Source: Akkermansia muciniphila
GTDB lineage: Bacteria > Verrucomicrobiota > Verrucomicrobiia > Verrucomicrobiales > DEV007
Direction: 5' to 3'
NCBI GenBank assembly: GCA_945883495.1
Contig: CAMCXS010000033.1
Span: forward strand, 1-57,670
DNA length: 57,670 bases
The translations under genes and the position numbers were made by a program. Shown here piece after piece: positions 13,573 to 48,557 of this stretch (position 1 is its first letter; the number at the start of each line of letters is the position of its first letter). The notes under the pieces are model-generated. The model had not been told where the DNA came from. It saw nothing but the letters and a program-made list of their open reading frames with translations, and did not search any database.

Positions 13573-13580
13573 GGGCGTGA

Positions 13581-14301: not shown

Positions 14302-14305
14302 CGCC

Positions 14306-17806: not shown

Positions 17807-17876
17807 GTGCGCGGGTTCGGGCCACCTTGGCAAGGGGGCTCACGCACCGCAAGCAGAATCGGCAGGACGGGAGCCA

Positions 17877-18044
17877 GAGCGTGAGAGCCCGAGAGCCCGA
17901 GAGCCCGAGAGCCCGAGAGCCCGAGAGCCCGAGAGCCCGAGAGCCCGAGAGCCCGAGAGCCCGAGAGCGTGAGAGCGTGAGAGCGTGAGAGCGTGAGAGC
18001 GTGAGAGCGTGAGCATGGCCTGATCGGCCTTGTGGACCGTTGCG
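17877..18044 (+). repeat. (GAGCCCGA)n/(GAGCGTGA)n microsatellite with palindromic tail, copy 2
   Basis: The 364-bp gap between the protease start (17806) and lpxA holds no gene. From about 17877 an 8-bp tandem array runs for roughly 135 bp: one GAGCGTGA, then about ten GAGCCCGA units, then about seven GAGCGTGA units. It is followed by GAGCATGGCCTGATCGGCC, which contains a GGCC...GGCC palindrome. The same arrangement occurs in short form at 11202-11260. The array is upstream of the protease gene and could vary in length by slippage. Confidence 0.85.
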
Positions 18045-18065
18045 GAGGGTTGCGCATTCTGGCAA

Positions 18066-18116
18066 CCGGAACGGCTTCCATCGGTAGGGCTGGTTGTCCT
18101 CAACCAGCCGTTCCGG
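18066..18116. repeat. REP-like nested hairpin
   Basis: Inner stem GGCTGGTTG (18088-18096) with CAACCAGCC (18101-18109) around a TCCT loop. Outer stem CCGGAACGGCT (18066-18076) with AGCCGTTCCGG (18106-18116). The two stems share AGCC, so alternative pairings are possible. A shorter relative (GGTTGTCCTCAACC.GCCGTTCC) is at 13581. It could act as a bidirectional terminator for lpxA (ending at 18171) or be a REP element. Confidence 0.5.
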
Positions 18117-18170
18117 AGGGGGGGGCGTCCGCGAGTCCGGAAACCGCCTGGACCAAGCGCCAGGCCTGGA

Positions 18171-18947
18171 TCAACGGATGATGCCGCGCGAACTGGAATC
18201 GACGAAGGCGATGATCTCCGCCAGCAGTCCGTCCACGTCCTCCATGCCCCGCAACTCGCCCAAGGCTTGCTGAACATTGAGATCCTTCCGGTAGAGCAAA
18301 CGGTGCGCTTCCTTGACCACGCGAACAGCGGCCTCGGAATATCCGTGCCGCTGCATTCCCACCACATTCACGCTCCGCACGGCCGCGGGATTGCCGTCCG
18401 CGATCATGTGCGGCGGCAAGTCCTGGACGATCTTGGTGCAGCCCCCAGTCATCGCGCCATCGCCCACCCGGCAAAACTGATGAACCGCCGAGAGCCCGCC
18501 CAGGATGACGTGATCCCCCACGATGACATGCCCGGCGAGGGTGCCGTTGTTCGAAAAGATGCAGTGATTCCCCACATAGCAGTCGTGCGCGATATGGGCG
18601 TAGGAGAGAAAATTGTTGTGGCTGCCGATGACCGTTTTGCCATCGGCGCTGGTGCCGCGGTGGATGGTGACAAACTCGCGGAAGGTATTGTCGTCACCGA
18701 TCTCGCAAAAGGTTGGCTCGCCTTTGTATTTCAGGTCCTGGGTTTGTTGGCCGATGGAGCCGAAGGCAAAAAAGCGGTTCCCCTTCCCCACGGTGAGCGG
18801 TCCGGCCAGGGTGACGTGGTTTTGCAACCAGCAGCCATCGCCCAAGCGCACCCCGGCGTGGATCACGCAATAGGGGCCGATCTCGACGTCCTCCCCGATT
18901 TCCGCGGAGGGATCGATGACGGCTGTGGGATGAATCCGCGAACCCAT
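18171..18947 (-). CDS. lpxA: UDP-N-acetylglucosamine acyltransferase LpxA
   Basis: A 258-residue left-handed beta-helix acyltransferase that transfers a 3-hydroxyacyl chain from ACP to UDP-GlcNAc, the first step of lipid A synthesis in the cytoplasm. Hexapeptide repeats fill residues 5-185 (IHPTAVIDPSAEIG, VEIGPYCVIHAGV). The LpxA signatures are clear: FGSIGQQTQDLKYKGE, HRGT, the catalytic His in YAHIAHDC (about residue 119), GGLSAVHQFCRVG and GNPAAVRSVN. It starts 7 nt after the lpxC/fabZ stop, forming the usual lipid A operon. Length is normal for the family. Confidence 0.95.
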   Translation of the reverse strand: MGSRIHPTAVIDPSAEIGEDVEIGPYCVIHAGVRLGDGCWLQNHVTLAGPLTVGKGNRFFAFGSIGQQTQDLKYKGEPTFCEIGDDNTFREFVTIHRGTSADGKTVIGSHNNFLSYAHIAHDCYVGNHCIFSNNGTLAGHVIVGDHVILGGLSAVHQFCRVGDGAMTGGCTKIVQDLPPHMIADGNPAAVRSVNVVGMQRHGYSEAAVRVVKEAHRLLYRKDLNVQQALGELRGMEDVDGLLAEIIAFVDSSSRGIIR

Positions 18948-18954
18948 GAATTCT

Positions 18955-20277
18955 TTATCTGTCCATTAGCGCGAACTTCAACTCCGCGCTTGAGGCGATC
19001 TCGCCGTTGACGGTGCACTTGCAAGCGGCGTGGCCGATGTTGCGCTTCACTTTGAGGAATTGCGCCTCGATCACCAAGGTATCACCCGGAACCACGAGAC
19101 GGCGGAACTTAATATCGTCCGCGCTGACGAAATACCCGATCTTGCCCTGATGCTCCGGCTTGCGGAGCATGATGATGCTGGCGACCTGGGCCATGGCCTC
19201 CAACTGCAAGACGCCAGGCATGATGGGATGACCGGGGAAATGGCCTTGGAAAAACGGCTCATTCACGGTGACCTGCTTCACGCCGGTGCACTTCGCATCC
19301 CCTTCGAAGTCAACAATCCGGTCCACCATGAGGAACGGGTAGCGATGCGGGAGGATGTGCATGATGTCCTCCACGTTGAGGATGCCCTTGCCGGTGGGGA
19401 CGAAGACCGGTTTCGGGATGGCGGCCTCGATCGCGCTGTAGGCTTCCCAGACTTTGCGGGCCATCTCCGTGTTCGGCCGGTGGCCCGGCTTGACGGCGAT
19501 GACGTGGCCCATGATGCGGCGGCCGCCGAGCATGAGATCGCCGATGATATCGAGGATCTTGTGGCGCACGAACTCGTCCTTGAAGCGGAGCGGCTCCTTG
19601 GTCATGACCTCCTGGTCCCGGATGACGACGGCGTTTTCGAGACTGCCGCCCTTGATGAGCCCCTTCTTCATGAGCGGCTCGACATCTTCGTAGTACACAA
19701 ACGTCCGGGCCGGGGCGATCTCCTTCTCGTAGGTCTCCGGATTGATCTCGAAGCTCTGGTATTGCGTGAAGCGCCCTTGCGGGCCCATCTGGGTGCAGCT
19801 GACACGGAAGTTCTTGTCCGGAACGATCGTCACCAAGGAACCGCCCGGCGTCTCCAGGTGGATCGGCTCGCGGACCTCGAAGACTTTGCGGAGCTGATCT
19901 TGCTTCTGCGACCCGGCCTTCTTGATCAATTCCACGAACGGGAGCGAAGAGCCGTCGGCGATCGGCGGCTCGTTGGCGTCCATTTCGACGATGGCGTTGT
20001 CGATCCCCATCCCGGTGAGGGCGGAGATGACGTGCTCCACGGTGTGCACCTTGACGCTGCCTTCGGCGATCGTGGTGGCACGTTCCACTTCCTGGACCCG
20101 GTCGATCGTGGCGGGGATGAATGGCGCGTCCTCGAGATCGACCCGGCGGAACTTGATCCCGTGATTGGCCGGAGCCGGCCGGAGGGTTAAGGAGACTTTT
20201 TCCCCGGTGTGAAGGGAGGTCCCCGCCAGCGTCGCGGCCTTGGCGAGGGTATGTTGGTGGTCGATCGGGCCTGCCAT
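18955..20277 (-). CDS. lpxC/fabZ: Bifunctional LpxC deacetylase / FabZ dehydratase fusion
   Basis: A 440-residue fusion. Residues 1 to about 290 are the UDP-3-O-acyl-GlcNAc deacetylase LpxC, the committed step of lipid A synthesis, with the zinc-site motifs HTVEHVISAL and HKILDIIGDL. Residues of about 300-440 are FabZ, the 3-hydroxyacyl-ACP dehydratase, with HRYPFLMVDRI and GHFPGHPIMPGVLQLEAMAQ. The fusion joins two enzymes that compete for the same 3-hydroxyacyl-ACP pool and is known from Bacteroidetes/Chlorobi and PVC bacteria, which supports the taxonomic guess. It is followed at once by lpxA. Confidence 0.95.
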   Translation of the reverse strand: MAGPIDHQHTLAKAATLAGTSLHTGEKVSLTLRPAPANHGIKFRRVDLEDAPFIPATIDRVQEVERATTIAEGSVKVHTVEHVISALTGMGIDNAIVEMDANEPPIADGSSLPFVELIKKAGSQKQDQLRKVFEVREPIHLETPGGSLVTIVPDKNFRVSCTQMGPQGRFTQYQSFEINPETYEKEIAPARTFVYYEDVEPLMKKGLIKGGSLENAVVIRDQEVMTKEPLRFKDEFVRHKILDIIGDLMLGGRRIMGHVIAVKPGHRPNTEMARKVWEAYSAIEAAIPKPVFVPTGKGILNVEDIMHILPHRYPFLMVDRIVDFEGDAKCTGVKQVTVNEPFFQGHFPGHPIMPGVLQLEAMAQVASIIMLRKPEHQGKIGYFVSADDIKFRRLVVPGDTLVIEAQFLKVKRNIGHAACKCTVNGEIASSAELKFALMDR

Positions 20278-37134: not shown

Positions 37135-37235
37135 CTCAGGCGAGGGCGGGAATCGCATTGCTCGCCTTTGAAGTGCTGATTTTCAGGGAGTTATGACGAC
37201 CGTTCCGGCGCTTTGTGTCCCACCTGCGTGTCCCT
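37135..37235 (+). repeat. Outer att site with integrase arm boxes
   Basis: The 21-bp tRNA-Cys core repeat (37135-37155) with an AGGCGAG...CTCGCCT inverted repeat around the expected crossover, followed by arm-type boxes TGTGTCCCA (37214-37222) and CGTGTCCCT (37227-37235), 13 bp apart. This marks the left end of mini-element A. Confidence 0.65.
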
Positions 37236-37287
37236 GCGTCCCTGGTGCAGTCATCGCGATGGTCCCCCCACAAACGAGCACTCGCTG

Positions 37288-37316
37288 TTGCCTTCAGGGC
37301 GTCTAAGCGGTAGGAT
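37288..37316 (+). promoter_or_regulatory. Promoter of the toxin-antitoxin pair
   Basis: TTGCCT (37288-37293), a 17-bp spacer and TAGGAT (37311-37316). The GTG start at 37323 is only 6 nt past the -10 box, so the antitoxin mRNA should be leaderless. Confidence 0.5.
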
Positions 37317-37322
37317 CATTCC

Positions 37323-37571
37323 GTGGCAACAATCCACATCGAGATTCCAGAAGAAGCGGCTCAGATTGAAGGGCTTGGCGAGCGGATCGCTTGGTTTGTG
37401 GAGGAACAGATCAAGATCGCCCGCTGGCGCAAGGATCGTTACAGCGCCGATGTGAACAATTTGGTGGCCGCAGCCTATGCTGAGGCTGACCGCCTCCGCG
37501 CCGATGGAGTGTCGCCCCAGCAGGCAAGACAGGAATTTTCCGCCCGGTGGCAAACGCTGGGTGGCGAATGA
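37323..37571 (+). CDS. Putative antitoxin of a PIN toxin-antitoxin pair
   Basis: An 82-residue protein starting at GTG (MATIHIEIPEEAAQI). The short beta-strand start and helical remainder fit small antitoxins, though no clear DNA-binding motif is seen. It sits directly upstream of a PIN-domain gene and overlaps it by 4 bp (ATGA), the usual order for antitoxin then toxin. It should bind and neutralise the toxin and may repress its own promoter. The identification rests mainly on position. Confidence 0.6.
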   Translation: MATIHIEIPEEAAQIEGLGERIAWFVEEQIKIARWRKDRYSADVNNLVAAAYAEADRLRADGVSPQQARQEFSARWQTLGGE

Positions 37572-38020
37572 CCTTCCGGGCGGTCATTGACACCAACGTC
37601 GTCATCGCCGGATTGCGTTCGACCTCGGAGGAGAGCCCTAACCGCGAACTTCAGGCGCGCTGGGACCGGGGAAGCTACATCTGGCTGCACTCGCGAGACA
37701 TCCTCAGCGAGTATGCGGAGAAGCTTCTCGAACTCGGGATTTCTCCGGAACGAATTCAGCCATTTCTCGCCCGATTGATCGTTGCCGGGGAAAATGTCTT
37801 CATCGCGTTCTTTCACGAGCGGTTCTATCCTGATGATCCTGATGACATCGCGTTCTTGCTCTGTGCGACCAACGGGAATGCAACTCATCTGGTCACCTAC
37901 GACGCCCACCTCACCACGCTGGACGGGCTTTTCGAGTTCCAGATCTTGGGGCCCCGGAAATTTCTCGAAGCACTGGACAAATCGGCCGAGACTACACCTG
38001 ATGTCCCAGAAAACGAGTAA
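37568..38020 (+). CDS. PIN-domain toxin (COG1569-type)
   Basis: A 150-residue PIN-domain ribonuclease. The acidic metal-binding residues are visible: VIDTNVVIAGL (Asp near residue 7), ILSEYAEKL (Glu), DPDDIAFLLCA (Asp-Asp) and THLVTYDAHL (Asp). This matches the 'putative toxin-antitoxin system toxin component, PIN family'. It would cleave RNA when freed from the antitoxin. The ATG at 37568 overlaps the antitoxin stop. In this position the pair can stabilise the island by post-segregational killing. Its 3' end runs close to the right att arm. Confidence 0.8.
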   Translation: MTFRAVIDTNVVIAGLRSTSEESPNRELQARWDRGSYIWLHSRDILSEYAEKLLELGISPERIQPFLARLIVAGENVFIAFFHERFYPDDPDDIAFLLCATNGNATHLVTYDAHLTTLDGLFEFQILGPRKFLEALDKSAETTPDVPENE

Positions 38021-38043
38021 CTCCCTCATAATGAAGGAGTTAC
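38017..38043. repeat. Inverted repeat next to the middle att core
   Basis: GTAACTCC (38017-38024) and GGAGTTAC (38036-38043) form a perfect 8-bp inverted repeat, 4 bp left of the att repeat at 38048. A comparable repeat, CTTCCCTC/GAGGGAAG (48452-48459 and 48476-48483), sits in the same place beside the intact tRNA. It may be part of the attP right arm or a terminator of the toxin gene. Confidence 0.5.
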
Positions 38044-38047
38044 GAAT

Positions 38048-38156
38048 GCTCAGGCGAGGGCGGGAATCGACTTCCTCGCCTTTGCAGTGCTGATTTTCAG
38101 GGACTTACGACGCCGCAAACGACCCAATGTGTCCCACCCTTGTGCCTCGTGTCCCA
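38048..38156 (+). repeat. Middle att site with integrase arm boxes
   Basis: The 23-bp tRNA-Cys core (38048-38070) sits in a perfect AGGCGAGG...CCTCGCCT inverted repeat. Inside the element follow TGTGTCCCA (38128-38136) and CGTGTCCCA (38148-38156). This is the junction between mini-element A and element B. Confidence 0.7.
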
Positions 38157-38183
38157 AGGCACAGACGAGAAGACCATTGCTGT

Positions 38184-38849
38184 TCACCAAGTGATGTTGA
38201 CGATCCGTTCAACAAACTCTCCCCCAACGCCCTTGCACTGAGGACACGGAGCACCGCTCACGAACTTTGCGCCACGGCAGAAACTGCACCTCGACGTGAC
38301 CTGAGGAACGGTGACCGTCCACGTTTTGCCAGCCTTGAGCCGCTCCAAGAATTGGTCCTTCGTCAGCTGTTGAAGGTCTGCACTCGTTCCGGCTAAGCGA
38401 AAAACCTTCACAGTCGCGTTTGCTCCGAGAGCCGTCGTGTATTCGAAGAGTTGCCCTGTGTCTTCGACGGACTTAAGCATCTTCTCTCCGTCGGCGAGTC
38501 GGCTGGAACCCGGCGGGAGATCAAGCCGGACGGTGGACCACTCCCCGGCAGGGACGAACGTTGTTCCCATGGCCCGGGCGACAGATCCAGCCAATTGCTG
38601 GGGCGTCCTCATCATTGCCAAATAGCTTGTTCCCTCGATGAACTGAACGATCTCGATGGTCTTCTCGTCGCCCGACTCAGCGGCTGCGGCTGCCCGGTTG
38701 GCCGTTTGCTCGTTGACGAGTGCAAGGATTCTGCCCCATCGGGGATCGTCCACCGGAACGGTGCTCATCTGGTAGTCCTCAGCAATCGCCGTAGAACAGG
38801 AAGCGACCGCAAAAAGCAAGACACTGATTGAACTTAGGTGCAATGGCAT
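38184..38849 (-). CDS. Exported protein with C-terminal DnaJ-like zinc motif
   Basis: A 221-residue protein with a signal peptide (SSISVLLFAVASCSTAIA; the AVASC segment could be a lipobox). The C-terminus carries CSFC...CPQCKGVGG, two CXXC pairs resembling a single DnaJ-type CXXCXGXG zinc knuckle. The middle has no recognised domain. Exported proteins with an isolated zinc ribbon of this kind are seen in PVC bacteria. It lies at the distal end of element B and is likely cargo. Confidence 0.55.
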   Translation of the reverse strand: MPLHLSSISVLLFAVASCSTAIAEDYQMSTVPVDDPRWGRILALVNEQTANRAAAAAESGDEKTIEIVQFIEGTSYLAMMRTPQQLAGSVARAMGTTFVPAGEWSTVRLDLPPGSSRLADGEKMLKSVEDTGQLFEYTTALGANATVKVFRLAGTSADLQQLTKDQFLERLKAGKTWTVTVPQVTSRCSFCRGAKFVSGAPCPQCKGVGGEFVERIVNITW

Positions 38850-38982
38850 CTAGACAGATGGCGCCGTGACCGGGATTCTCTAGCAAAATGTGAAGCTAGG
38901 TTCCTGGCGTTTCTGTCCCACGCGTCCGCGACGCCTCCCCTTTTTTCGGGCTGACTTGCGCAGCGGCCGATTTCTGGAAGCC

Positions 38983-39011
38983 TTGACTTGGGAAGGGAAC
39001 TTTGCGTAACT
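38983..39011 (+). promoter_or_regulatory. Possible promoter for the 39066 gene
   Basis: TTGACT (38983-38988), a 17-bp spacer and GTAACT (39006-39011), about 55 nt before the GTG at 39066. The -35 box is good and the -10 box is weak. The region 38850-39065 holds no gene. Confidence 0.35.
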
Positions 39012-39065
39012 GCGACACCTCGCCGCGAAATCCGCCTTTTCACCTGGCATACCCATACTTACGAA

Positions 39066-39593
39066 GTGAAGATCGCTGCTCTTGTCATCACCTTCGCCCT
39101 TGTCGTCGTCCCAACAATCGGCCATGGGGAAGTGTTCGTAACCTCCTTCGAAAAACCGAAGGATTGCATCGCCATCCCCGCCAAATATGGACTTCAACCC
39201 ATCTCCGGTTCAGTTCCGGCATGGAAGAATCTTGGCTTGGGATGGTTCAGCCAATCCTCGATCCTCACCTTCAAAGGCAACAAGCAGCGGGTCGGAGATA
39301 TGGACAACGAAATCACGTGTCTCTTTCACTCGTCGGTGGAAAACCGGGTCGAATTCATGAGGCTCACGGCAGATTGCTTCAACTCTGGCGGCGTCAATCC
39401 GACTGTCACCAAGTTCCGCGAGGTGGGCACCGGAATTCTCGGAGATCTCGGAGTGCCAGAGCCGGGTGAGATTTTCAAGCATGCCGATCCGCTGAAGGGT
39501 AAGGAGATCTCCACCGACGCTTACACAATAAGTCTGAAAAGGGAAGCTTACAGGATCGGATACGGATGGATTCTGACCCTCACAGCAAAGTAA
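39066..39593 (+). CDS. Exported hypothetical protein
   Basis: A 175-residue protein starting at GTG, chosen because it opens directly into a signal peptide (KIAALVITFALVVVPTIGHG). The mature protein is mixed alpha/beta with several aromatic residues and three cysteines; no family is recognised. An upstream in-frame start at 38988 would bury the signal. It is convergent with the 39623 gene (29 bp between stops) and is likely island cargo. Confidence 0.5.
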   Translation: MKIAALVITFALVVVPTIGHGEVFVTSFEKPKDCIAIPAKYGLQPISGSVPAWKNLGLGWFSQSSILTFKGNKQRVGDMDNEITCLFHSSVENRVEFMRLTADCFNSGGVNPTVTKFREVGTGILGDLGVPEPGEIFKHADPLKGKEISTDAYTISLKREAYRIGYGWILTLTAK

Positions 39594-39622
39594 TCCTCGC
39601 GAGAAATCAGCCGGAAGCCGAC

Positions 39623-40072
39623 TCACAAGATACTGATATCGTCGTTACTGAAAGGGCGGTTGATCCCGTTCGCCTCGACGGGGTGCTCGCTTGCCGTCAA
39701 TACCGTGTCGTAGAAGTCAGGATCGAACTTGTCGCTAAGGAAGCAATAACGCAGCACTTGAATAAGCTCCACCCGCTTCGCCCGCCCTCCAAACTCCCCC
39801 TCTAATTGATAAAAGGTTGGAACCGCTTTTTCCAGCCACTTCTTGTCCAGATGAGTCACGAGTTGATCAACGAACTCTTTACCAACCCGATAGCAGTCAG
39901 AAAAGGGGTCTTGCTCGCCAACGCACCAACTCTCGTCAAAGATGGGGTAAATTCCTGCTGCGACCGAATAAAGGAAGCCCTCCGGGAGTTTGAGATCTCC
40001 GGAAGGGTCCTGGCAATTGAGTAAGATCTGCATCCGGTGGGATTCAAAAACTGCTTTCAGTTCGTTGCTCAT
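39623..40072 (-). CDS. Hypothetical protein
   Basis: A 149-residue soluble, acidic protein (residues FYSV..GIYPIFDESWCVGEQDPFSDCYRVGKEFVDQLVTHLD in the middle region) with no signal peptide and no recognised family. Its composition is like a typical globular bacterial protein, which supports it as real. No gene is seen in the 205 bp upstream (40073-40277). Confidence 0.5.
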   Translation of the reverse strand: MSNELKAVFESHRMQILLNCQDPSGDLKLPEGFLYSVAAGIYPIFDESWCVGEQDPFSDCYRVGKEFVDQLVTHLDKKWLEKAVPTFYQLEGEFGGRAKRVELIQVLRYCFLSDKFDPDFYDTVLTASEHPVEANGINRPFSNDDISIL

Positions 40073-40277
40073 TGATAGTAGTTCGGTTAATTTTCTTCTG
40101 GGTCGTTGGCTGTAAAGCCCCCGCTGACGTTAGGAATTGTATTGCTTCGAAGGGGAAGGTCAAAGGGAATGCGTTGAGGATGTTTCTTTCGAGAACCCTT
40201 CACCCCATTTAGAACGCTGGGTGCGCGGGACATTGCTCGCTTCATGGCCTTTCGGGATGGGACAGACCGCCACAGAA

Positions 40278-40955
40278 TTAAAAATCAACCCGGATCGGGC
40301 CAAAGGCCCCCGCCCAGATTAGTGCTTCATAAACCGACTTCATTGCCTGACCCGTTTTCTGATTCACGAAAAGCGAGGAACTTTTGCCACACGGGCGTCC
40401 TAGCATATAGGTCCTCATCGTCTCCCACGTTTCAGCCACTTCCGCACGCTTCCAGCCCCGAAGCTCTTCTTCTACCATTAGTGCCACTGCCGCACGCTGA
40501 GAGATAGTGCCATCTGACTGAGGATGCAGCAGCCATTCGCAGGTGATCAGGATAGGGAGAGCGCTCGAATGATACAACTTCACATCCAACAGTTCGCATT
40601 TCACGCTTACACAAGAGGGAAACTCAAGCTTTTTGACTGACTCTAGGACGGTGTCGCTACCTTCGTATGGGCAGGTCAGAATAGCATTGCGGAAGTAGAC
40701 GGTGTGATCAAGCCCTTGGTAGCCACACGAATCGTCAGGACGTGTCCTTGGGTTGGAATCAAGCCTCTCCCCGGCTGTGACAAGAGGGTGCCAACAGGGG
40801 TAGCTATCGACCACTGGCCCCCACCTCCTTACGAGTTCCTCCAGTAATACCCGTCCTGCTTTGATTTCCTCCCTGCTCAGGTTTTTTGGCGAAAGAAGGA
40901 ACTCTTCTGCCCGCTCGAACAGCTCGGTTTCTGACTCGTTTGCTCTAAATGCCAT
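40278..40955 (-). CDS. Hypothetical protein
   Basis: A 225-residue soluble protein with several cysteines and tryptophans and no recognised family. The N-terminus is helical and charged (ESETELFERAEEFLLSPKNLSREEIKAG). It lies downstream of the serine recombinase gene in the same direction (79 bp gap). It may be a functional cargo gene of the element; nothing in it points to a role. Confidence 0.5.
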   Translation of the reverse strand: MAFRANESETELFERAEEFLLSPKNLSREEIKAGRVLLEELVRRWGPVVDSYPCWHPLVTAGERLDSNPRTRPDDSCGYQGLDHTVYFRNAILTCPYEGSDTVLESVKKLEFPSCVSVKCELLDVKLYHSSALPILITCEWLLHPQSDGTISQRAAVALMVEEELRGWKRAEVAETWETMRTYMLGRPCGKSSSLFVNQKTGQAMKSVYEALIWAGAFGPIRVDF

Positions 40956-41034
40956 GACGCATAGTCACCGAGGCGCACGCAAAGTCAAGATTTTCTGCGC
41001 ACGAAATCTCATTTTCATGCACAGCAATCTGACC

Positions 41035-41694
41035 TCATGCGCAAAGGCGGCGCAAGCTTTCCGAGCCCAAGACCGCCTTGACCCGCTGCACCGTTGACAT
41101 CCCCTTGCCGGTGATTTTCGCTGTGTTCCGGACGGACTGACCCGCCTTCAGTTGCTTCACGATGTCGCGATGACGCTCAATTAGTTCCCTCGGTGTCGTG
41201 GTCGTTCCCTTGGGCCGTCCGAGCTTCACTCCCTTCCTCCGAGCTTCAGCCAGTCCCGAGTTGATCCGCTCAACCATCGTTTCCCGTTCCGCCCTCGCCA
41301 TCTCCGAAAGGAGCGAAAACATGATCGAAGCGGCGGGATTCCGCTTTCCGTTCGGGAGAAGGGTCTCGATCCCTTGGGAGTGCCAGTAGAGGGAAACCGA
41401 GTGAGATTCAAGGAACTCCAGGAACTCATGGGCGACGGAGTTCCTCCGGGCGATCCGGGAGACTTCGTGAACAAGCACTTTCTTGACTCTCCCCGCCTCA
41501 ACCAGTTCGCGGACACGGTTGAGACCAGTGCGAGCAGAAGCGTCCTTGGTGCCGCCGATCTGTTCTTCCGCAATCTCGACCACATCCCAACCCTTGGAAG
41601 CGGCGACAGCTTTGAGTTCGGTGACCTGCCTGTCAGTCTCCTGTTTCTTGGTGGAGACCCGGACGAGAATGACGGCGGGAAGAGGCTTGCTCAT
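41035..41694 (-). CDS. Serine recombinase (resolvase/invertase family)
   Basis: A 219-residue recombinase. The catalytic serine is in VRVSTKKQ (about residue 13), and the resolvase core shows EVSRIARR (catalytic Arg cluster), MFSLLSEMARAERETMVERI and GVKLGRPKGTT. A C-terminal helix-turn-helix follows (KAGQSVRNTAKITGKGMSTVQRV). Length and layout match Tn3-type resolvases or DNA invertases, not the large serine integrases. It could resolve element dimers or switch DNA. The ATG at 41694 is preferred to a GTG three codons upstream. A 32-bp palindrome lies 20 bp upstream. Confidence 0.88.
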   Translation of the reverse strand: MSKPLPAVILVRVSTKKQETDRQVTELKAVAASKGWDVVEIAEEQIGGTKDASARTGLNRVRELVEAGRVKKVLVHEVSRIARRNSVAHEFLEFLESHSVSLYWHSQGIETLLPNGKRNPAASIMFSLLSEMARAERETMVERINSGLAEARRKGVKLGRPKGTTTTPRELIERHRDIVKQLKAGQSVRNTAKITGKGMSTVQRVKAVLGSESLRRLCA

Positions 41695-41713
41695 GGTGAA
41701 CACTATGTCATCT

Positions 41714-41745
41714 GTATTCAGAAAATCAATAGATTTCTAGAATAC
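41714..41745. promoter_or_regulatory. 32-bp imperfect palindrome upstream of the serine recombinase
   Basis: GTATTC at one end and GAATAC at the other enclose AGAAAATC...GATTTCTA, giving an imperfect dyad of 32 bp in AT-rich DNA, 20 bp before the recombinase start. It could be a binding site (res/gix-like) or an operator for autoregulation. The remainder of 41746-41941 contains no gene. Confidence 0.5.
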
Positions 41746-41941
41746 GATAAATCGACCTTCACGAAGGCCGGTTCAGTGGGGGAACAACAGGCCGAATTGA
41801 GGCAGGGATTTTTTGAATACATCAATCAGCTCGATTGCAACGGAAGCCATTCTTGCCCCCCCCCTTTCTCCGATTCGGTTTAATTCTCCCCCAAGGCAGT
41901 GCTCGGACGCACAGCGTCCGCAGGTTCTACCATGTTTCCTT

Positions 41942-42460
41942 CTACCATCTCCATTCTATCATCTTTAATCTGCAAATTAGCAGAGCCCCCCCTCCGTTTT
42001 TGCAGAGGCCCCCCTCTGCATTTTCGGAGGGGGATCGAGTCCTCCTAATTCTGGATGCTCCTTCTGGACGCTTGTTCAAACAGACGCTAACAAACATTTT
42101 GTCCTCGGTATCAGTTCCGTGGATTTCGACCAACCCTTTCTTGACCAAGGATTGGAACGCCCTATTGCACGTTCTCCACTCTGCTACACGGGGAGCAACC
42201 AAGCATTGGCGCTTTCGATCCTTGATTCCAATGCTCATTTGCCGAACAGAAACCGCCTCGATCTTCTTGCCCCAACCGTATGTGCGATCGAAGATCCAGT
42301 GCAGGATTGCCTGTTCCGCCAAACTCAACCCACCGAGGGCAATCCGCATCTGCCGGGAGGCAGCAAAGTAATCGGATAGCTTTTGATCCTCTACGGAATG
42401 AGGTTCGCTTTTCTCGTTCCATTCGCCTGAGTGAGGGTTTGTCTTCTCTTCGTTCTTCAT
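41942..42460 (-). CDS. Phage O-like replication protein (winged helix)
   Basis: A 172-residue DNA-binding protein. The segment SLAEQAILHWIFDRTYGWGKK...VSVRQMSIG...RTCNRAFQSLVKKGLVEIHG is the winged-helix pattern of phage replication protein O and related initiators. The C-terminal third is low-complexity and encoded by DNA that holds a large hairpin (41988-42033). In lambda-like phages the origin lies inside gene O, so this gene may carry the element's origin. It lies 40 bp after terL in the same direction. Confidence 0.7.
   Translation of the reverse strand: MKNEEKTNPHSGEWNEKSEPHSVEDQKLSDYFAASRQMRIALGGLSLAEQAILHWIFDRTYGWGKKIEAVSVRQMSIGIKDRKRQCLVAPRVAEWRTCNRAFQSLVKKGLVEIHGTDTEDKMFVSVCLNKRPEGASRIRRTRSPSENAEGGLCKNGGGALLICRLKMIEWRW
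41988..42033. other. Two-stage hairpin inside the replication gene (candidate origin)
   Basis: Outer stem CCCCCTCCG (41988-41996) with CGGAGGGGG (42025-42033). A symmetrical TTTT/TTTT internal loop follows, then an inner stem TGCAGAGG (42001-42008) with CCTCTGCA (42013-42020) around CCCC. All 17 base pairs are perfect. AT-rich DNA lies beside it (41950-41980). It lacks a U-tract in either direction, so a terminator is unlikely. Confidence 0.5.
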
Positions 42461-42500
42461 GTTTTGTCGTTGAGTGGATTTTGGTCTTAGATGATCCCGA

Positions 42501-43805
42501 TCACACTAGAAGGGACGGGCGCCTTAGAGGATAGAGCGCTCCGAAGACCGCGTCTGCCCGGTCGGGCGACTGGCAGCCTCGCCGTCTCATCTGTTCCTTT
42601 GTTTCAAGCACGACAACCCCCGTGCTTCCTAGGGACACCCGGCGCGTTGTGAGTTGGCCGATTAGTGCTTCATCGTTCGGAAGGATCACCTCCCGCTTTT
42701 CGATCATTCGGGCGCCTGCCGCCCACATCTCAATCCCAAGGTTGGCGTAGAGCCTACGGTTCTTCGGTTTGGCCCCGTTATTGATCCCGGTAATCGGCCA
42801 TCCGAGTTCTGCCATGCGATCACAGATGGGTCTGCCCAAACCGGAGCCGTCGCCAAAAATGCGGTCTTTGGGGAGTTGATGACGCTCAAACAGACGGATG
42901 AACCGCCCGACCGCTTGCATGGTGTTTGAATCCCTCCAGGCATCCGCGATCTCAACGCGGTTTCCCCGACGAATCGCCAAGACGTTCTCGTCTCCGCCAG
43001 CGGCGAAGTCGCAGAACGCTTGGATCTCACCATCTGCAAAGACCGGAGGATTGGCGATGCAGTCTTCAACGGCGCGGAGGGAGATCGAAGCACGTTCATC
43101 GGCGGTCTCGTCAAAATCCGCGTGGATCATCGAACGGACGAGGGGCGAATCCGCACCGTGCTTCTCGATCTGCGCGGCGATCCAGGACCTCTCGATATGG
43201 GGACAGTCGTAGGCAGTAACCGAGAATCGCCGGTAGAACCTCGCGTCCTTCGTGAAGGCTCGGTAGAAGGCCCCCGAGGCTGGACCCGGTGACGAAATCA
43301 GGAGCAACCTGGACGGTTGGCATCTCTCCACCGCGTTGAAGATCTCGTCAGGAACGGACTTCGCCTCGTCAATGATGATCAACAGGTTCTCGTTGTGCCA
43401 GCCTTCAAATCGCTGCGCGTCATCAGTCGAGAAGCCGATGATCCGCGATCCGGTATGGGTCGTCACCTCGGCATTGTTCCAAGTCCATGAACCTGGGAGC
43501 TTAGGGGCAAAGCTTCGGATCGCCGGAAAGAAGGCATCCCGGACCTGCCGGTAGACGCCCGCTGTCACGATGGTCAAGGAACCGGGATAGACCGAGGCAT
43601 GCCATAGCGCCAACGGGGCGCCAAGCCCGGTCGTCTTTCCCGATCCGTTCGCCGCCTTTACAGCCACAGATCCGGGACGGTCCAGAGCGGCCATGATTTC
43701 GACTTGCCACGGGTAGAGATCGAGCCCCAAAACGCCCATCGCAAAGCCGTAGGGCAGGCTGAGAAGTTTGAGCCTTTCCCGTTCCGAGTATGAGCATCTA
43801 CTCAT
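42501..43805 (-). CDS. Terminase large subunit
   Basis: A 434-residue phage DNA-packaging motor. The ATPase domain has Walker A AANGSGKTT (about residues 52-60) and Walker B NLLIIIDEAKS (about 137-147). The C-terminal RNase H-like nuclease has CDFAAGGDEN (about residue 256) and IFGDGSGLGRP, and the final acidic motif SPDRADAVFGAL (about 417). All metal-binding acidic positions expected for TerL appear present, so the protein looks intact. It would translocate and cut DNA at a procapsid. No portal or capsid gene follows. Its ATG overlaps the terS stop by 4 bp. Confidence 0.85.
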   Translation of the reverse strand: MSRCSYSERERLKLLSLPYGFAMGVLGLDLYPWQVEIMAALDRPGSVAVKAANGSGKTTGLGAPLALWHASVYPGSLTIVTAGVYRQVRDAFFPAIRSFAPKLPGSWTWNNAEVTTHTGSRIIGFSTDDAQRFEGWHNENLLIIIDEAKSVPDEIFNAVERCQPSRLLLISSPGPASGAFYRAFTKDARFYRRFSVTAYDCPHIERSWIAAQIEKHGADSPLVRSMIHADFDETADERASISLRAVEDCIANPPVFADGEIQAFCDFAAGGDENVLAIRRGNRVEIADAWRDSNTMQAVGRFIRLFERHQLPKDRIFGDGSGLGRPICDRMAELGWPITGINNGAKPKNRRLYANLGIEMWAAGARMIEKREVILPNDEALIGQLTTRRVSLGSTGVVVLETKEQMRRRGCQSPDRADAVFGALYPLRRPSLLV

Positions 43806-44512
43806 TCCGGAAGAGCGTGAGGCGTGACACCTTCGCCGGGAGTCTCCGTTTGTGCAGTCCGGGCGGCTGCGATCCGGTCGAGGGTATCCTGAGCAAGACC
43901 GAGCGTCACTCCCACTTCTCCCGAGATCTTCACCTCGTGATCAAGAACTGTCTTTGCAAACCCTGCCACGGTCTTCTCCGCCCACCATCTTGCGCACTGT
44001 GTATCGCCCTTGGCGATGGCATCAATGATCACCTTCATCCTCGCCTTGATTCCTTGCGCCTTGGCTTGCTCTAGAAGCAAAGAAAACTCAGGGCGTTCCT
44101 TACGCCATTGGAGCAGCGTCTCATAGGTGATGCCGCCCAAGGCAGCAGCATGATTCAGCGGAAGCCCATCTGTGACCGCTGCGCAGATGGCCGCTACATT
44201 TTCAGGAGTATACTTGCTCGGCCTTCCAGCGCATCCCTCCAGGTTCGCGGGCTCGGCTTGTCCTTGCACGACGGAGGGCGCTCTTGTGATCGTTGCCATT
44301 ACGGCCTCGAACCGCGCCCGATAAACAGGGTCGGTCTTCAGCCAAACGTAATGGGTGGTCCTGGCGATACCTATCGCCTTAGCCGCTTCAGGTATGCTCC
44401 CGCACGTTCGCGGAAGAGAAGCCAAGAACTGCGCCTGTCGCCTCTCACGCCCATGATTGCGACGGTGAACAGTGGATTTTACCTGGGATGCCACAGCTCC
44501 CCACTGTGACAT
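43802..44512 (-). CDS. Terminase small subunit-like DNA-binding protein
   Basis: A 236-residue protein with two helix-turn-helix regions: SIPEAAKAIGIARTTHYVWLKTD (about residues 38-60) and LPLNHAAALGGITYETLLQWRKERPEF (about 119-145). Both are of the type found in terminase small subunits. It should recognise the pac/cos site and deliver DNA to TerL. It is the first gene of the terS-terL-rep run, and the ATGA overlap shows coupling to terL. An inverted repeat and a TGTCGATAT box lie just before its start. Confidence 0.75.
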   Translation of the reverse strand: MSQWGAVASQVKSTVHRRNHGRERRQAQFLASLPRTCGSIPEAAKAIGIARTTHYVWLKTDPVYRARFEAVMATITRAPSVVQGQAEPANLEGCAGRPSKYTPENVAAICAAVTDGLPLNHAAALGGITYETLLQWRKERPEFSLLLEQAKAQGIKARMKVIIDAIAKGDTQCARWWAEKTVAGFAKTVLDHEVKISGEVGVTLGLAQDTLDRIAAARTAQTETPGEGVTPHALPE

Positions 44513-44515
44513 ATA

Positions 44516-44530
44516 GTCGAAATATCGACA
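44516..44530. promoter_or_regulatory. Operator-like dyad at the terS start
   Basis: GTCGA-AATA-TCGAC (44516-44529) is a perfect 5-bp inverted repeat 4 nt before the terS ATG. On the minus strand it contains TGTCGATAT (44530-44522), which recurs at 46239-46247 in the XRE intergenic region. A shared repressor is likely. Confidence 0.45.
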
Positions 44531-44581
44531 AGCGCTTCTGCGGACTTTTTCTACCTTCCTTGGTAAGCTTTTATTATTAAC

Positions 44582-46111
44582 TCAGTCTTTCACTGACACC
44601 ATTGACCCTGCGAACCATCCAGATCCTCCGACCTCATTGCCAACAAGATCGACTAGCTTGATGTGGGCTTTGTCGAGATCATTGGGCGAGTAGATCTGTG
44701 CCCACGCCTGCCACAAAACTTGGGCGAACTGAAGGCGCACCTGCTTCGGCTCGTAATGCCAGCTATTCGCAACGGTGAGGGTGGCGACCTGCCCGTTCAC
44801 AGAGACATGCTTGATGAAGTTGCCTGAGCCTGAAACTTCCAGAACCTTGATGAGCGTGTCGAGTTGCTCCTGTGCGACACGCTTCGAAGCGGCAGCGTGG
44901 TTCGCTTTCGCCATTTGCTGCTCAGCTTGCGCCCGTGCCGCCTCGGCAGCGATACGTTTCGACTCTGACGGAGTCACTCGATAGGGAAACCGAGCCCCAA
45001 GCTCTTCAGGAAGACTTCCCCTGGTGATCTTCAAGAAACCCGCCGCACTCTTAAGGGTCAGCACGTCCGACTCGATGCGATGAATGGAGACGTTCTCATA
45101 GCGTTTGCCACCTAGTGTGGTGAACGCTATGCCCTGCCCAAGAAATTCCCGGTCCGCTTGGGAGAGTTTGTCCATTGTCAGCTTAAATGGCTTCTCATCT
45201 TTGAGGATCGTCACTTCATCGCTAGAGAACTCTTCCACCCTTCCGAAGAACTTTCGCTGTCCGTCAGCGCTGGTCCATTCTCGCGGAGCATAAACTCCGT
45301 CACTGGACACTTCTTGTGCCTTATTCTTGGGATCGCTTTCTGTGCGACTCACTCCCATGGCCTGCGCCCACGCCTCGTCGAGAAAGCGACTGGCTTCCGT
45401 GTCTGCGCCTTTGTTGGTCCTCCACTCGTTGGCCAAAATGACTAGATCGCCAACAGCTACCCCTTTGGCAATAAAGGCGGAATCACCTTTCGTTTCTGCT
45501 TGAAGGGTCTGCGACCGCTCAAACCATGACCTGAATCTCGAACCTTCAGCAAAGCCTTCTTGGTGGAATTCCGGAGCAGCTCTCATCTCAAGCAGTTCCA
45601 AATAGAGCGCTTTAGCTCGTCCCATGTGATCAGTCGGCGCCGGGCCTCGCTCCTGAGTTTGGCTTTCTGCCGGTGCTGGGGACGGCATCGCCTGGGGAGG
45701 CGTCGCCTCTTGGCTGGCGATTTCCGGAACGACAGGGTTGACGTCCGGTTTGTTGGCTTGTTCCCCGGGGCTTGGCCGTCGATCATTCGCAGACCCTTGC
45801 GCACCATTATCGACCAACGACACAGCCCATAGAAAGAAGAGGAACGCAACGGTTCCCACCAGACTGAGGCTCGCAAATGTCACGGGATTGACTCGCCTAG
45901 TCGGGATCGGCGGAGGTGACGAGGCCGCTCCCTGCCCACCCTGGCGCTTCGCCCCCTTCTGAGCGTTGTAGTCTAGCACGACGTAAATCGCGTGGATGAT
46001 GGCCGGAATCCAGAACAGCAGACACAGGAGTAGGTTCAGAAGGAACGCTCCGATTCTCCGAGTCGATAATACGGCAAGCGGAGGGAAGATGATCGCAATT
46101 ATCACTCTCAT
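44582..46111 (-). CDS. YqaE/Pmp3-SHD1 membrane protein
   Basis: A 509-residue protein. The N-terminus (VIIAIIFPPLAVLSTRRIGAF...WIPAIIHAIYVVLDY) is a complete YqaE/Pmp3 two-helix domain, normally a 50-60 residue stress protein. A third helix follows at about residues 82-100. Next comes a Pro/Gln-rich linker, then an SHD1-type module (REWTSADGQRKFFGRVEEF...DKLSQADREFL) and a helical C-terminal half. SHD1 modules are a PVC hallmark. The start at 46111 begins exactly at the YqaE domain; an upstream GTG at 46162 is possible. It diverges from the XRE gene and may act at the host membrane during the element's life cycle. Confidence 0.65.
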   Translation of the reverse strand: MRVIIAIIFPPLAVLSTRRIGAFLLNLLLCLLFWIPAIIHAIYVVLDYNAQKGAKRQGGQGAASSPPPIPTRRVNPVTFASLSLVGTVAFLFFLWAVSLVDNGAQGSANDRRPSPGEQANKPDVNPVVPEIASQEATPPQAMPSPAPAESQTQERGPAPTDHMGRAKALYLELLEMRAAPEFHQEGFAEGSRFRSWFERSQTLQAETKGDSAFIAKGVAVGDLVILANEWRTNKGADTEASRFLDEAWAQAMGVSRTESDPKNKAQEVSSDGVYAPREWTSADGQRKFFGRVEEFSSDEVTILKDEKPFKLTMDKLSQADREFLGQGIAFTTLGGKRYENVSIHRIESDVLTLKSAAGFLKITRGSLPEELGARFPYRVTPSESKRIAAEAARAQAEQQMAKANHAAASKRVAQEQLDTLIKVLEVSGSGNFIKHVSVNGQVATLTVANSWHYEPKQVRLQFAQVLWQAWAQIYSPNDLDKAHIKLVDLVGNEVGGSGWFAGSMVSVKD

Positions 46112-46225
46112 TGGGAAACAATCGTTGCGTTGGTTGTCAGGAATGCAAGCGGGAAAGGCCACACTAAGGCTGAGGAGCCAGAGCTAGGAATTCCCCTGGC
46201 GCCCACCCATTGGGAGACCATAAAT

Positions 46226-46256
46226 GCTACTTTCTGTATGTCGATATCAAAGTAGC
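46226..46256. promoter_or_regulatory. Operator between the XRE and YqaE-SHD1 genes
   Basis: GCTACTTT (46226-46233) and AAAGTAGC (46249-46256) form a perfect 8-bp inverted repeat with a 15-bp spacer. The spacer contains TGTCGATAT (46239-46247), which is also found at the terS promoter. The position between divergent genes beside an XRE regulator suggests its operator. Confidence 0.5.
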
Positions 46257-46274
46257 TAGGTCTTAACAGGACTG

Positions 46275-46514
46275 GTGGGTTCCCATCAGTCAGGCCAACG
46301 GGAGATCAGCCGCAAGCTCGGCTGCGTCATCCGGTCTCGGCGAGAAGCGATGGGCGTGAGCCAGGAAGAGTTCGCGGATCTTTCCGGCCACCATCGAACC
46401 TATATCGGGTTTCTCGAACGTGGCGAACGGTGCCCGAACATTGCCACTCTTGAGCGGATTGCGGGAGCGTTGGGCACCAAGGTCTCGGAACTGCTTGCTC
46501 AGGCTGGCTACTGA
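46275..46514 (+). CDS. XRE-family transcriptional regulator
   Basis: A 79-residue protein consisting almost only of an XRE helix-turn-helix (IRSRREAMGVSQEEFADLSGHHRTYIGFLERGERCPNIATLERIAGALG), the Cro/C1/restriction-controller type. It starts at GTG and its last 7 bases overlap the convergent integrase gene. It should control the element, probably through the nearby inverted repeat and the TGTCGATAT boxes, in the manner of satellite master repressors; the target genes are inferred. Confidence 0.85.
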   Translation: MGSHQSGQREISRKLGCVIRSRREAMGVSQEEFADLSGHHRTYIGFLERGERCPNIATLERIAGALGTKVSELLAQAGY

Positions 46515-48382
46515 ACCAGCGCCGATTTCGAAGAGAGCGGAGAAAGATCGAGTCCATCGAACTCAACCTGATCTATCACCTCCTTCAGCTTCGAAAGCGG
46601 ATAGCCATCGCCGTAGTCCCAACCCGAGTTCTTCCTCATGCCTTTGGACCATCCGCAAAGCGCATATCGAATCTCGTCCGACGTCGTGACACGGCGGATC
46701 GCATCGGCAACCGAGTGACGCAAAGAATGGAGTGTTTTCCCGTGTCTGCTCGACACAAAACCAAGAATGTCCACCTTGTTGCGTAGCCACCACTGCGTCA
46801 CCTTGTCGCCCGGTTTTTTGGTGCCGTGTAACTCGGGGAACAGCATTCCCCTGCCGTTTCGCTCTCGTTGACGAGCGACAAACTCCATGAAGCCTAGCTC
46901 GATGACCTTCCGGTGAATCGGAATCCGCCTCCGGCTGGCGGAAGTTTTCAGGCTTTGCCCTTCTCCCTCAATGATGTCGAGGAACGCGATACCTTCGGAC
47001 TCCTTCACGTCTTCGATTCGGAGCTGAGCCACCTCGTTCAAGCGGGTTCCATGGAAGGTGCAGAGCAGAACCGTCCAAAAACGCCCTTGTCCGGCAGGTC
47101 TTGAGCGTTCCGCAAGGAAGAACGGATGGGCAAAGAGATGATTGAGGTCTTCGACTGTGAGTCCGTTTTCAGCCTTGGCGGGTATCTCCGGGAGAAGGTT
47201 TTTCAGCGCCTTAGCCGCAAACGGATTTGAAGAGATCCAGCCGATGTCGAGGGCGTGAGCGAAAAGGGCGACAGCGTCTCCGAAGTAATCGGCTTGGGAC
47301 TTGGGAGCGAGCCGTTCGGGATTGGCGTCTCGATCCGCCTTCTCAATCGCGTCCGGGAGGCTCATTCCCTTGTAACGTTTGACCGCATGGGCAGGAATTC
47401 TGGAAAGGAATGCTGCGAATCCTTTCGCCTTTTCGTAGTCCACGGATTCCACCGGAAGCTCGGGACCGAGAAACGCCTCAAGGGCGTCAAAGTGGGCCCG
47501 ATAACTCTTCATTGTCGCCGGTTTCACTCGGCCTTTGTGCGCGATGAAATGCACCCGCAGCTCCCTGACCGTCTTGGAAGCTTTCGACCTCGCTGGGCTT
47601 GGCTCCGGGGTTGAGAAGGTGATCCCCGCAAACAGGGTATCGGCTTGGAAGGCGGGGTCACCTTTTCGGGCGGCCATCGTCCTCTGTTCGACCTCGATCC
47701 GGGCTCGCTTGAAGGTCATGAGCATCTCCGGGAGAACATCCCTCCGGCAGGCATCGTCGAGCCAAATGCCGGTAGCGTTCAGCTCCCGTTCCAGATCGAA
47801 CTCCCATTCAACCTTGGGATAGCCTTGGGCTTGCCCAGTGAGAACGGCAAGCTCCAAGTCTGCAACTTCATCACCGCCGCCTTCCAGCCTGCCGCACGCC
47901 AAACGAACTGACGTGGCATCCCGCTCGTGCCGGATGAACCAACGGGTGATCCAATCCCTTCGCTCCTCCGAGGTCAATACGCTCAATGGACGTTCCAGAA
48001 GCAGAAGGCGATTGACTTCCTCTTTCCAACGCTTGGTCTCCCTTGGCGACAGTTCCTCGTTTGCACGAACGTTCAATTTGCTGGCGATCTCACGGAGCCT
48101 TCGTAGTTCCCTCTCCGGAAGATGCGAGAACCTCTCGATGGTGGTTTCCATCGGCTCGTTCGCCGGAACGGGCGCTTTGAGCCTGAGCCGGTGAGCGGCG
48201 AACTCTTCTTGGACCTCAACAAGGCGGGACGCCTTCAACCTCTCCGCAGTCCGTCGGTCAGTCGTTTCGAGGGAATGCTTAATAAACTCACTGTTCCCGT
48301 AGACGCCAGCGGCGCGAAGGTCACACGGAATCCGCATTTTGAAGTAGAACGTCGCGCCGCGTATAGCGAGGTATTTGGACAT
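46508..48382 (-). CDS. int: Tyrosine recombinase / integrase
   Basis: A 624-residue integrase. The N-terminus (YLAIRGATFYFKMRIPCDLRAA) is the short beta-strand element of DUF6538-type integrases, followed by a long helical region and a SAM-like core-binding domain at about residues 270-380 (TVRELRVHFIAHKGRVKPATMKSYRAHFDAL). The catalytic domain has the first Arg in FHGTRLNEVAQL, HSLRH, GWSKG in place of the usual GH(S/T) and a probable nucleophile in WDYGDG near the end. It lies just beside the tRNA-Cys gene and should catalyse integration and excision at the T-arm. The protein appears full length. Confidence 0.9.
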   Translation of the reverse strand: MSKYLAIRGATFYFKMRIPCDLRAAGVYGNSEFIKHSLETTDRRTAERLKASRLVEVQEEFAAHRLRLKAPVPANEPMETTIERFSHLPERELRRLREIASKLNVRANEELSPRETKRWKEEVNRLLLLERPLSVLTSEERRDWITRWFIRHERDATSVRLACGRLEGGGDEVADLELAVLTGQAQGYPKVEWEFDLERELNATGIWLDDACRRDVLPEMLMTFKRARIEVEQRTMAARKGDPAFQADTLFAGITFSTPEPSPARSKASKTVRELRVHFIAHKGRVKPATMKSYRAHFDALEAFLGPELPVESVDYEKAKGFAAFLSRIPAHAVKRYKGMSLPDAIEKADRDANPERLAPKSQADYFGDAVALFAHALDIGWISSNPFAAKALKNLLPEIPAKAENGLTVEDLNHLFAHPFFLAERSRPAGQGRFWTVLLCTFHGTRLNEVAQLRIEDVKESEGIAFLDIIEGEGQSLKTSASRRRIPIHRKVIELGFMEFVARQRERNGRGMLFPELHGTKKPGDKVTQWWLRNKVDILGFVSSRHGKTLHSLRHSVADAIRRVTTSDEIRYALCGWSKGMRKNSGWDYGDGYPLSKLKEVIDQVEFDGLDLSPLSSKSALVQ

Positions 48383-48397
48383 GACGAAAACCGAGTC

Positions 48398-48483
48398 TGT
48401 GTCCCATCATTGTGTCCCACTTGCTCGATGTCAAGCCCTCAGAATCAGCGACTTCCCTCGGGATGAACGAGTTATGAGGGAAG
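48398..48483 (+). repeat. Integrase-side arm boxes and inverted repeat
   Basis: TGTGTCCCA occurs at 48398-48406 and 48411-48419, 13 bp apart like the pair at 37214. Then CTTCCCTC (48452-48459) and GAGGGAAG (48476-48483) form an 8-bp inverted repeat that touches the tRNA-derived core. Together these make the right arm of the element's attachment site. Confidence 0.6.
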
Positions 48484-48486
48484 CTC

Positions 48487-48557
48487 AGGCGAGGGCGGGA
48501 ATCGAACCCGCGATAGAGGTTTTGCAGACCTCGGCCTTACCACTTGGCGACCTCGCC
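48487..48557 (-). tRNA. tRNA-Cys (GCA)
   Basis: A 71-nt cloverleaf. Acceptor stem GGCGAGG/CCUCGCC, D arm with AGUGGUAA, anticodon loop CUGCAAA with GCA, T arm GCGGG-UUCGAAU-CCCGC and discriminator U73, the identity base of cysteine tRNA. CCA is not encoded. The 3' half is the attachment site of the neighbouring integrative elements and is intact, so integration left a functional gene. Confidence 0.95.

Follow-up and report, generated by a model that had tools for sequence, protein, structure and literature searches.

A candidate family of phage satellites in Verrucomicrobiota with a complete terminase and no recognised capsid genes

Introduction

What use could a mobile element make of a complete DNA-packaging motor if it encodes no head to be filled? 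The question is raised by an element at positions 38048–48505 of contig CAMCXS010000033.1 (Akkermansia muciniphila, phylum Verrucomicrobiota; assembly GCA_945883495.1), which we analysed within a stretch of 57,670 nucleotides, here called the window. An original prediction, made from the letters of the DNA, had described a satellite-like element with an integrase, an XRE repressor, the small and large terminase subunits (TerS and TerL), an O-like replication initiator and a serine recombinase, with nothing for portal, head or tail, and had likened it to phage-inducible chromosomal islands (PICIs). PICIs of the Staphylococcus aureus pathogenicity island (SaPI) type are integrated elements with an integrase, a repressor, a replication gene and TerS, have no portal or tail, and use the TerL of their helper phage.

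We propose, with a probability of roughly 0.7, that the element is an integrated phage satellite from a Verrucomicrobiota family that has a complete terminase, has no capsid and uses the heads of a helper. The idea of a satellite draws good support from a family of portal-free relatives whose TerLs form one clade.

Results and Discussion

A complete terminase

The catalytic motifs of TerL are intact, as had been predicted: K57, T58, D146, E147, D266, D319, D415 and D418 are invariant in an alignment of 13 rows, and the same eight residues are kept in an alignment of eight members of the family described below, except that locus L052 has E at 418. The AlphaFold model of TerL (mean predicted local distance difference test score, pLDDT, 86.3; predicted template modelling score 0.57) finds its best Foldseek match in Sf6 gp2 (E 9.8e-21) and also matches ATPase and nuclease domains of TerLs separately; we ascribe its low global TM-scores (about 0.4) to domain orientation. 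Sequence searches of the PDB with TerL and TerS gave no match. TerS has 236 aa, against 130–197 aa in the relatives, and its N-terminal end also matches a second family of TerS; it may therefore bind DNA through two units.

The rest of the predicted gene set was borne out by Pfam and PHROGs for the integrase, the XRE gene and the serine recombinase, which like TerS and TerL are all clear. The O-like gene is present, with an assignment below the Pfam cut-off that makes it the weakest item of the set. Near the end of this gene (41850–42030), the minus strand has several runs of G, which could affect its reading frame or serve as a regulatory site. Of a PICI-type set, the element has an integrase and an XRE regulator on opposite strands, and a candidate replication gene that is weakly assigned.

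A family of compact elements at tRNA genes

A scan of genome contigs turned up eight loci (L048–L055) with TerLs at 55–62% identity, all in Verrucomicrobiota metagenome-assembled genomes, and a class-wide search added a ninth, L211. TerLs above 670 bits occur in 6 of 384 genomes of the class (1.6%; the window's own is included, as are the partial L049 and the broken L053), and among 387 phylum-level genomes only in the window's own. The phage TerLs are more distant, at 34–42% identity in Akkermansia phages and up to 52% to the window in IMG/VR contigs among the matches listed.

Both tRNA-derived ends could be mapped in seven of the ten loci, at six kinds of tRNA gene: tRNA-Cys in the window (10.5 kb), tRNA-Lys in L050 (14.0 kb), tRNA-Gln in L051 (10.5 kb), tRNA-Thr in L052 (7.7 kb), tRNA-His in both L054 (8.2 kb) and L055 (11.2 kb), and tRNA-Leu in L211 (12.3 kb). 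L048 adjoins a tRNA-Thr gene and its contig stops at TerL, while the contig of L049 stops 0.7 kb after TerS–TerL. Relatives had been expected at tRNA-Cys, with conserved gene order and a size near 10 kb. Those found sit at other tRNA genes (Lys, Gln, Thr, His, Leu); they are compact, at 7.7–14.0 kb, but order is kept for TerS–TerL only. In L052, a second repeat of 35 bp (at 4141 and 4489) involves the other half of tRNA-Thr, which suggests tandem insertions at one tRNA.

TerS and TerL are all that the ten loci have in common. An integrase is found in eight of them, and, in a comparison of nine loci, every other gene was limited to three at most (genes were called as the longest open reading frame (ORF) only, and their starts are approximate). 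This pattern bears on whether we are dealing with a very small complete virus, whose capsid proteins would go unrecognised among genes without assigned function; in the window, p225, p149, p201 and most of the 526-aa membrane protein would leave room for them. Such a virus is very improbable, given how little recurs beyond integrase and terminase, and given that a set of portal, capsid, tail and lysis genes would hardly fit into the 7.7 kb of L052.

One further locus, L213, has a TerL of 514 aa together with TerS. It encodes an amidase/structural-type protein, falls outside the TerL clade and was not counted as a member.

Absence of recognised head genes

The prediction that the element has no portal, head or tail gene agrees with our Pfam and PHROGs searches. 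TerS and TerL apart, the ten element proteins matched no structural family at E≤0.1, and p201, searched at E≤0.01 and 0.05, likewise matched none. A portal hidden Markov model (HMM) found no match among 596 ORFs of at least 50 aa from the ten loci, and no portal follows TerL in the eight loci with sequence there (the window and seven relatives). Phages from IMG/VR present a contrast: among the best 80 loci, a portal is seen in 68 of the 68 with at least 1.5 kb downstream of TerL and in six of the other 12, which have less than 1.5 kb, the HMM having been built or extended partly from these same phages.

When 77 late-region proteins from seven phage loci were compared with the ten loci, only a Mu-like protease found counterparts, in L054 and L055 (E 1e-10 to 1e-14), apart from one weak match to the TerS of L049 (5e-4). 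In L054 (11429–13230) and L055 (11389–13486), the homologue of the Mu-like head protease comes after TerL and is followed by a metalloprotease-like protein with an HEAGH motif, with no recognised capsid gene. This second protein, of 250 aa (297 aa from the longest start), was considered as a capsid and rejected on finding the HEAGH motif by eye. Speculatively, the two proteins may act on the head of the helper.

The protease homologue also bears on origins. Capsid-forming PICIs (cf-PICIs) carry TerS, TerL, HNH, protease, portal and capsid genes, according to the part of PMC10690885 used here, and the family could have arisen by secondary reduction from a cf-PICI, or from a similar satellite, through loss of the capsid genes but not of the terminase. 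The position of the protease homologue after TerL would fit, as would a weak match to a His-Me nuclease in L054 (PF18275, 0.0036, below cut-off). We find this derivation doubtful, with cf-PICIs considered by description only; it rivals our proposal over origin and not over present function, as its product would still be a capsid-less satellite.

Luteolibacter, Haloferula and similar loci also seemed to be without a portal by the first HMM, but a Chantilly portal used as reference located one further downstream in L067, L074, L034 and L037–L039. L060 and L062–L064 show no portal in the stretch read; we take them for prophages and have not counted them, because the TerLs of L060, L062 and L064 group with that of L074. 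L062, L063 and L064 are short contigs from a single Luteolibacter pohnpeiensis genome; their TerL genes resemble one another closely, and they may be related prophages or the product of an assembly split by repeats.

One TerL clade with low dN/dS

The TerLs of the members form one group, of nine rows with support 100/96 in a tree of the window and 64 other loci (without L023, L063, L066, TerL pieces below 300 aa and two thirds of the IMG/VR loci L082–L161), and of ten rows with support 97/92 in a tree of 38 rows that includes L211; in both, the label "no portal" extends to L048 and L049, which are cut downstream. Several branches within the clade are long (0.5–0.7), which suggests that it is probably old, with the tool's warning that long branches may be misplaced. 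The ratios of nonsynonymous to synonymous substitution (dN/dS, NG86 method) range from 0.077 to 0.174 for TerL, with 0.17 for L054/L055, 0.08 for L048/L049 and 0.17 for L049/L053, the first two being rough as dS exceeds 0.9; for TerS they are 0.14 and 0.29. In at least the L054/L055 pair, the terminase is conserved without a portal nearby.

These results speak to one rival, an ordinary tailed prophage that has lost its structural genes and been left with integrase, regulator and terminase. Phages and prophages are indeed the neighbours of the clade in the tree, a head-type protease persists in L054/L055, and L053 is decaying. However, seven further readable loci are in the same state as the window and belong to one TerL clade, an outcome not expected of recent deletions that occurred independently. 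Seven elements keep both ends, the integrase and the terminase intact, L053 is the one broken element among the nine relatives, and TerL dN/dS is well below 1 in all three pairs tested. In the window element the genes are open, so that decay of what remains is not borne out there. A lone deleted prophage is therefore unlikely for the window element, and deletion as the general explanation is improbable.

Ends of the element and the tRNA-Cys site

The coordinates first proposed for the element hold: it is bounded by a 23-bp exact repeat of the 3' end of tRNA-Cys and measures 10,458 bp with both repeats (Table 1). Its GC content is 55.8% (computed to 48506) against 61.8% in the flanking 4 kb on each side. 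The 57.7-kb window contains four copies of the sequence TGTGTCCCA, against 0.21 expected by chance, and every copy lies at most 90 bp inside an attachment (att) copy. These copies are probable arm sites of the integrase, judging from their placement. Short repeats common to both ends are also found in L050, L051 and L052.

Table 1. Features of the element and of its integration site, with positions in the window. Gene starts are approximate.
Feature	Position	Strand	Evidence and remarks
Third att core copy	37135..37155		21 bp exact; left-end-like stretch continues to 37242
TGTGTCCCA, single copy	37214		inside left-end-like stretch
Distal att core copy at the element's left end	38048..38070		23-bp exact repeat
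TGTGTCCCA, single copy	38128		inside left end
221-aa protein, DnaJ-like zinc motif	38184..38849	-	PF00684 0.007, below cut-off; homologue in L050, BLASTP 3e-10
p201, 201 aa, possible cargo	38988..39593	+	no family match
p149, 149 aa, no assigned function	39623..40072	-	no Pfam, PHROGs or PADLOC match
p225, 225 aa, no assigned function	40278..40955	-	no Pfam, PHROGs or PADLOC match
Serine recombinase, invertase/resolvase type, 222 aa	41035..41703	-	PF00239 7.9e-29; phrog_125 2e-36
Candidate replication initiator (O-like), 172 aa	41942..42460	-	weak: PF04492 5e-4, 21.0 bits against a cut-off of 28.7; phrog_277 0.002
TerL, 434 aa, ATPase and nuclease	42501..43805	-	phrog_2 2.2e-25; catalytic residues present
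TerS, 236 aa, Sf6-like	43802..44512	-	phrog_4102 1.4e-15; PF20901 1.9e-6; N-terminal part matches phrog_4044
Membrane protein, 526 aa, Pmp3 domain	44582..46162	-	PF01679 3e-14; homologue in L051, BLASTP 2e-22
XRE/Cro-type regulator, 79 aa	46275..46514	+	PF01381 1.1e-16; strand opposite to integrase and terminase
Tyrosine integrase, 624 aa, DUF6538 and phage integrase	46508..48382	-	PF20172 2e-14; PF13102; phrog_1 2.5e-21; PF00589 just under cut-off
TGTGTCCCA pair	48398..48419		copies at 48398 and 48411, inside right end
att core copy in tRNA-Cys 3' end	48483..48505		23-bp exact repeat
tRNA-Cys (gca)	48487..48557	-	ARAGORN; integration target, remains intact

The left end is itself repeated, as 37135–37242 matches 38049–38155 over 107 bp at 80% identity. 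Together with the third att copy, this points to a related element having inserted earlier at this tRNA, and the stretch would be a remnant or a tandem neighbour of such an insertion. Between the att copies (37135–38047) lie a PIN-domain gene (37547–38020; PF13470 1.6e-13) and a small gene upstream of it (37323–37571), a pair (37323–38020) that is likely to be toxin–antitoxin cargo of the older insertion.

The original prediction had named relatives at the same site with a full structural module as the sign of a deleted prophage. No TerL, TerS or portal match was found in six stretches at tRNA-Cys copies in genomes of the same family, several of them cut by contig ends, which give little coverage of the site. 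In two of them a contig-cut integrase stands beside a partial tRNA-Cys copy (L231: 9770–10509; L235: 9232–10079), so that tRNA-Cys seems to be a recurrent integration site. No empty tRNA-Cys site was found, the flanks aligning no further than the tRNA.

Replication modules, cargo and interference

Around the terminase, the relatives carry a changing set of replication-type genes, among them a primase, an ERCC4 nuclease, a DnaD-like loader and, in L055, a BT4734-type primase. L052 and L211 share an integrase type, a 521/656-aa protein, the ERCC4 nuclease, TerS and TerL; the 521/656-aa protein, which carries our own label of helicase, is weakly like a phage primase/polymerase (phrog_19930). L048, L050 and L051 share a protein of about 300 aa that in L048 is weakly like the Rep of filamentous phages (PF05144 0.004, below cut-off); a structure model of this candidate (pLDDT 50) was not used.

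There are also extra genes beyond TerL, with anti-phage systems in two members. L051 carries PD-Lambda-5 A (7.7e-178) and B (4.9e-117) at 13504–15794, and L050 has genes for a C5 methylase, a Z1 helicase, an HNH protein, DUF4420 and HATPase (12306–19430), a set similar to restriction–modification or MZA-like systems.

Such cargo would suit a chromosomal island in which TerS–TerL interferes with incoming phages, as a decoy or by packaging the wrong DNA, without spread in particles. So would the result of eight scans of IMG/VR viral contigs, which yielded no clear satellite contig among the matches listed; the scans with TerS and the O-like protein found no relatives, and the search for the element's DNA in viromes that had been suggested at the outset gave no clear evidence. 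One IMG/VR locus, L242, part of a 19.8-kb contig, encodes TerS and a TerL 63% identical to that of L049. An island of this kind leaves unexplained why integrase, att ends and replication genes are joined in one compact unit, and the conservation of the nuclease as well as the ATPase residues suggests real cutting. As interference is compatible with packaging and may be a side effect of it, we consider an island devoted to interference a minor possibility.

How a satellite with its own motor may work

The anatomy, the ends, the conservation, the lack of recognised head genes and the common TerL clade are observed, and from them we infer every step of the following cycle. The tyrosine integrase would excise the element at the tRNA-Cys repeat, whose anatomy is seen, and a replication protein of the element, here probably the O-like one and in other members primase-type proteins or a possible rolling-circle Rep, would multiply it. 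TerS would mark a site on the element's own DNA. The element's TerL would cut there, dock on the portal of an empty helper head and pump the DNA in, with packaging probably of the Sf6 headful type, to judge by homology. Head, tail and lysis would be supplied by the helper, to judge by the absence of those genes from the element. Thus, packaging would be redirected by replacing the whole motor, and not TerS alone.

The end of TerL that docks may differ in these elements. Past the last nuclease motif, TerL has a tail of 16–18 aa in the window and in L049, L050, L051, L052 and L053, and of 37, 60 and 63 aa in L211, L054 and L055, respectively, whereas among 114 non-member TerLs, near-copies included, it is 31–57 aa in the 108 for which it could be measured. 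The tail is readable in these nine members, for L053 from the fragment after the break, the TerL end of L048 being cut by the contig. The C-terminus of TerL contacts the portal in some phages, and the difference in length may therefore concern docking. We lean slightly towards a broader proposal, in which a long-lived lineage of Verrucomicrobiota satellites specialises in substituting a whole packaging motor, with a TerL that acts on portals encoded outside the element, the docking end may have changed, and replication and cargo modules are exchanged around the motor.

Several points weigh against a satellite. A helper, induction, excision and particles are postulated. The genome that carries the element gave no portal match with PF04860 (for which the control was positive in 4 of 14 genomes) or with two protein queries that had no positive control, and the helper is thus an infecting phage or went undetected. 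In the 384 class genomes, the O-like gene has one weak match besides itself and p225 one weak, interrupted match. Among the relatives, L049 lacks a recognised integrase and L053 has a broken TerL with a transposase gene nearby; L048 is cut at TerL and L049 0.7 kb past it, so that neither counts towards the absence of a portal. Only the L054/L055 pair in the dN/dS comparison has both neighbourhoods fully read, and it is this pair that retains a head-type gene, the Mu-like protease homologue. The portal HMM misses the portals of Akkermansia/Luteolibacter-type (Chantilly-type) prophages, which the 77-protein comparison covers but, again, by sequence. L242, satellite-clade-like and the only possible virome link among the matches listed, ends 375 bp after TerL and decides nothing.

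Comparison with known systems

The element shares with phage satellites that it is a mobile element without a full virion gene set, and it has conserved genes, TerS and TerL, that may favour packaging into the particles of another phage. Published systems are compared here from portions of the papers concerned. The gene set is similar to that of SaPI-type PICIs, from which the element differs in its host phylum and in a full-length TerL with catalytic residues; in SaPIs, packaging is redirected by TerS, and the portion of PMC10690885 used mentions no TerL of the satellite. PICI-like, as the original prediction put it, is therefore apt as an analogy and not as a statement of membership. The cf-PICIs have both terminase subunits in common with the present elements, and encode portal, protease, capsid and connectors besides (PMC10690885), whereas here no portal, capsid or connector was found and a protease homologue in two relatives only. 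Likewise, MulchRoom and MiniFlayer, satellites of Streptomyces phages, have their own TerS and TerL and, as described, add portal and capsid (PMC10690885).

Satellites without structural genes have also been described. AH14b of Pseudomonas is an induced satellite of 16.8 kb that is packaged by headful into the capsids of its helper AH14a; it has a P4-like primase, and the portion of PMC4936722 consulted names no terminase for it. PICMIs (phage-inducible chromosomal minimalist islands) are small, do not remodel capsids and use headful-like packaging; unlike the elements here, they were found by their authors to have no terS or other packaging-redirecting gene, as stated in the portion of PMC10803314 used. 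The Akkermansia phages Chambord and Chantilly and the prophages of Luteolibacter and Haloferula, with TerLs 34–42% identical and hosts in the same phylum, differ in that genes for portal, head and tail are seen wherever the sequence read is long enough, and phages of their type are possible helpers.

With a TerL, unlike TerS-type PICIs, and without capsid genes, unlike cf-PICIs, the family would be a variant of the phage satellite that stands, by the descriptions available, between the two. In the open-access literature searched, we found no paper on satellites with TerS and TerL but no capsid, and none on satellites in Verrucomicrobiota.

Conclusions

As far as the literature covered here goes, in the portions used, published satellites either redirect the terminase of their helper or carry the motor along with a complete head. 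If our proposal is true, a family that brings the motor only would show that terminases can travel and function separately from their portals, and the matching of TerL to portal would become testable. It would also extend satellites to a phylum for which our searches turned up no paper on them, and would give anti-phage systems such as PD-Lambda-5 a further vehicle.

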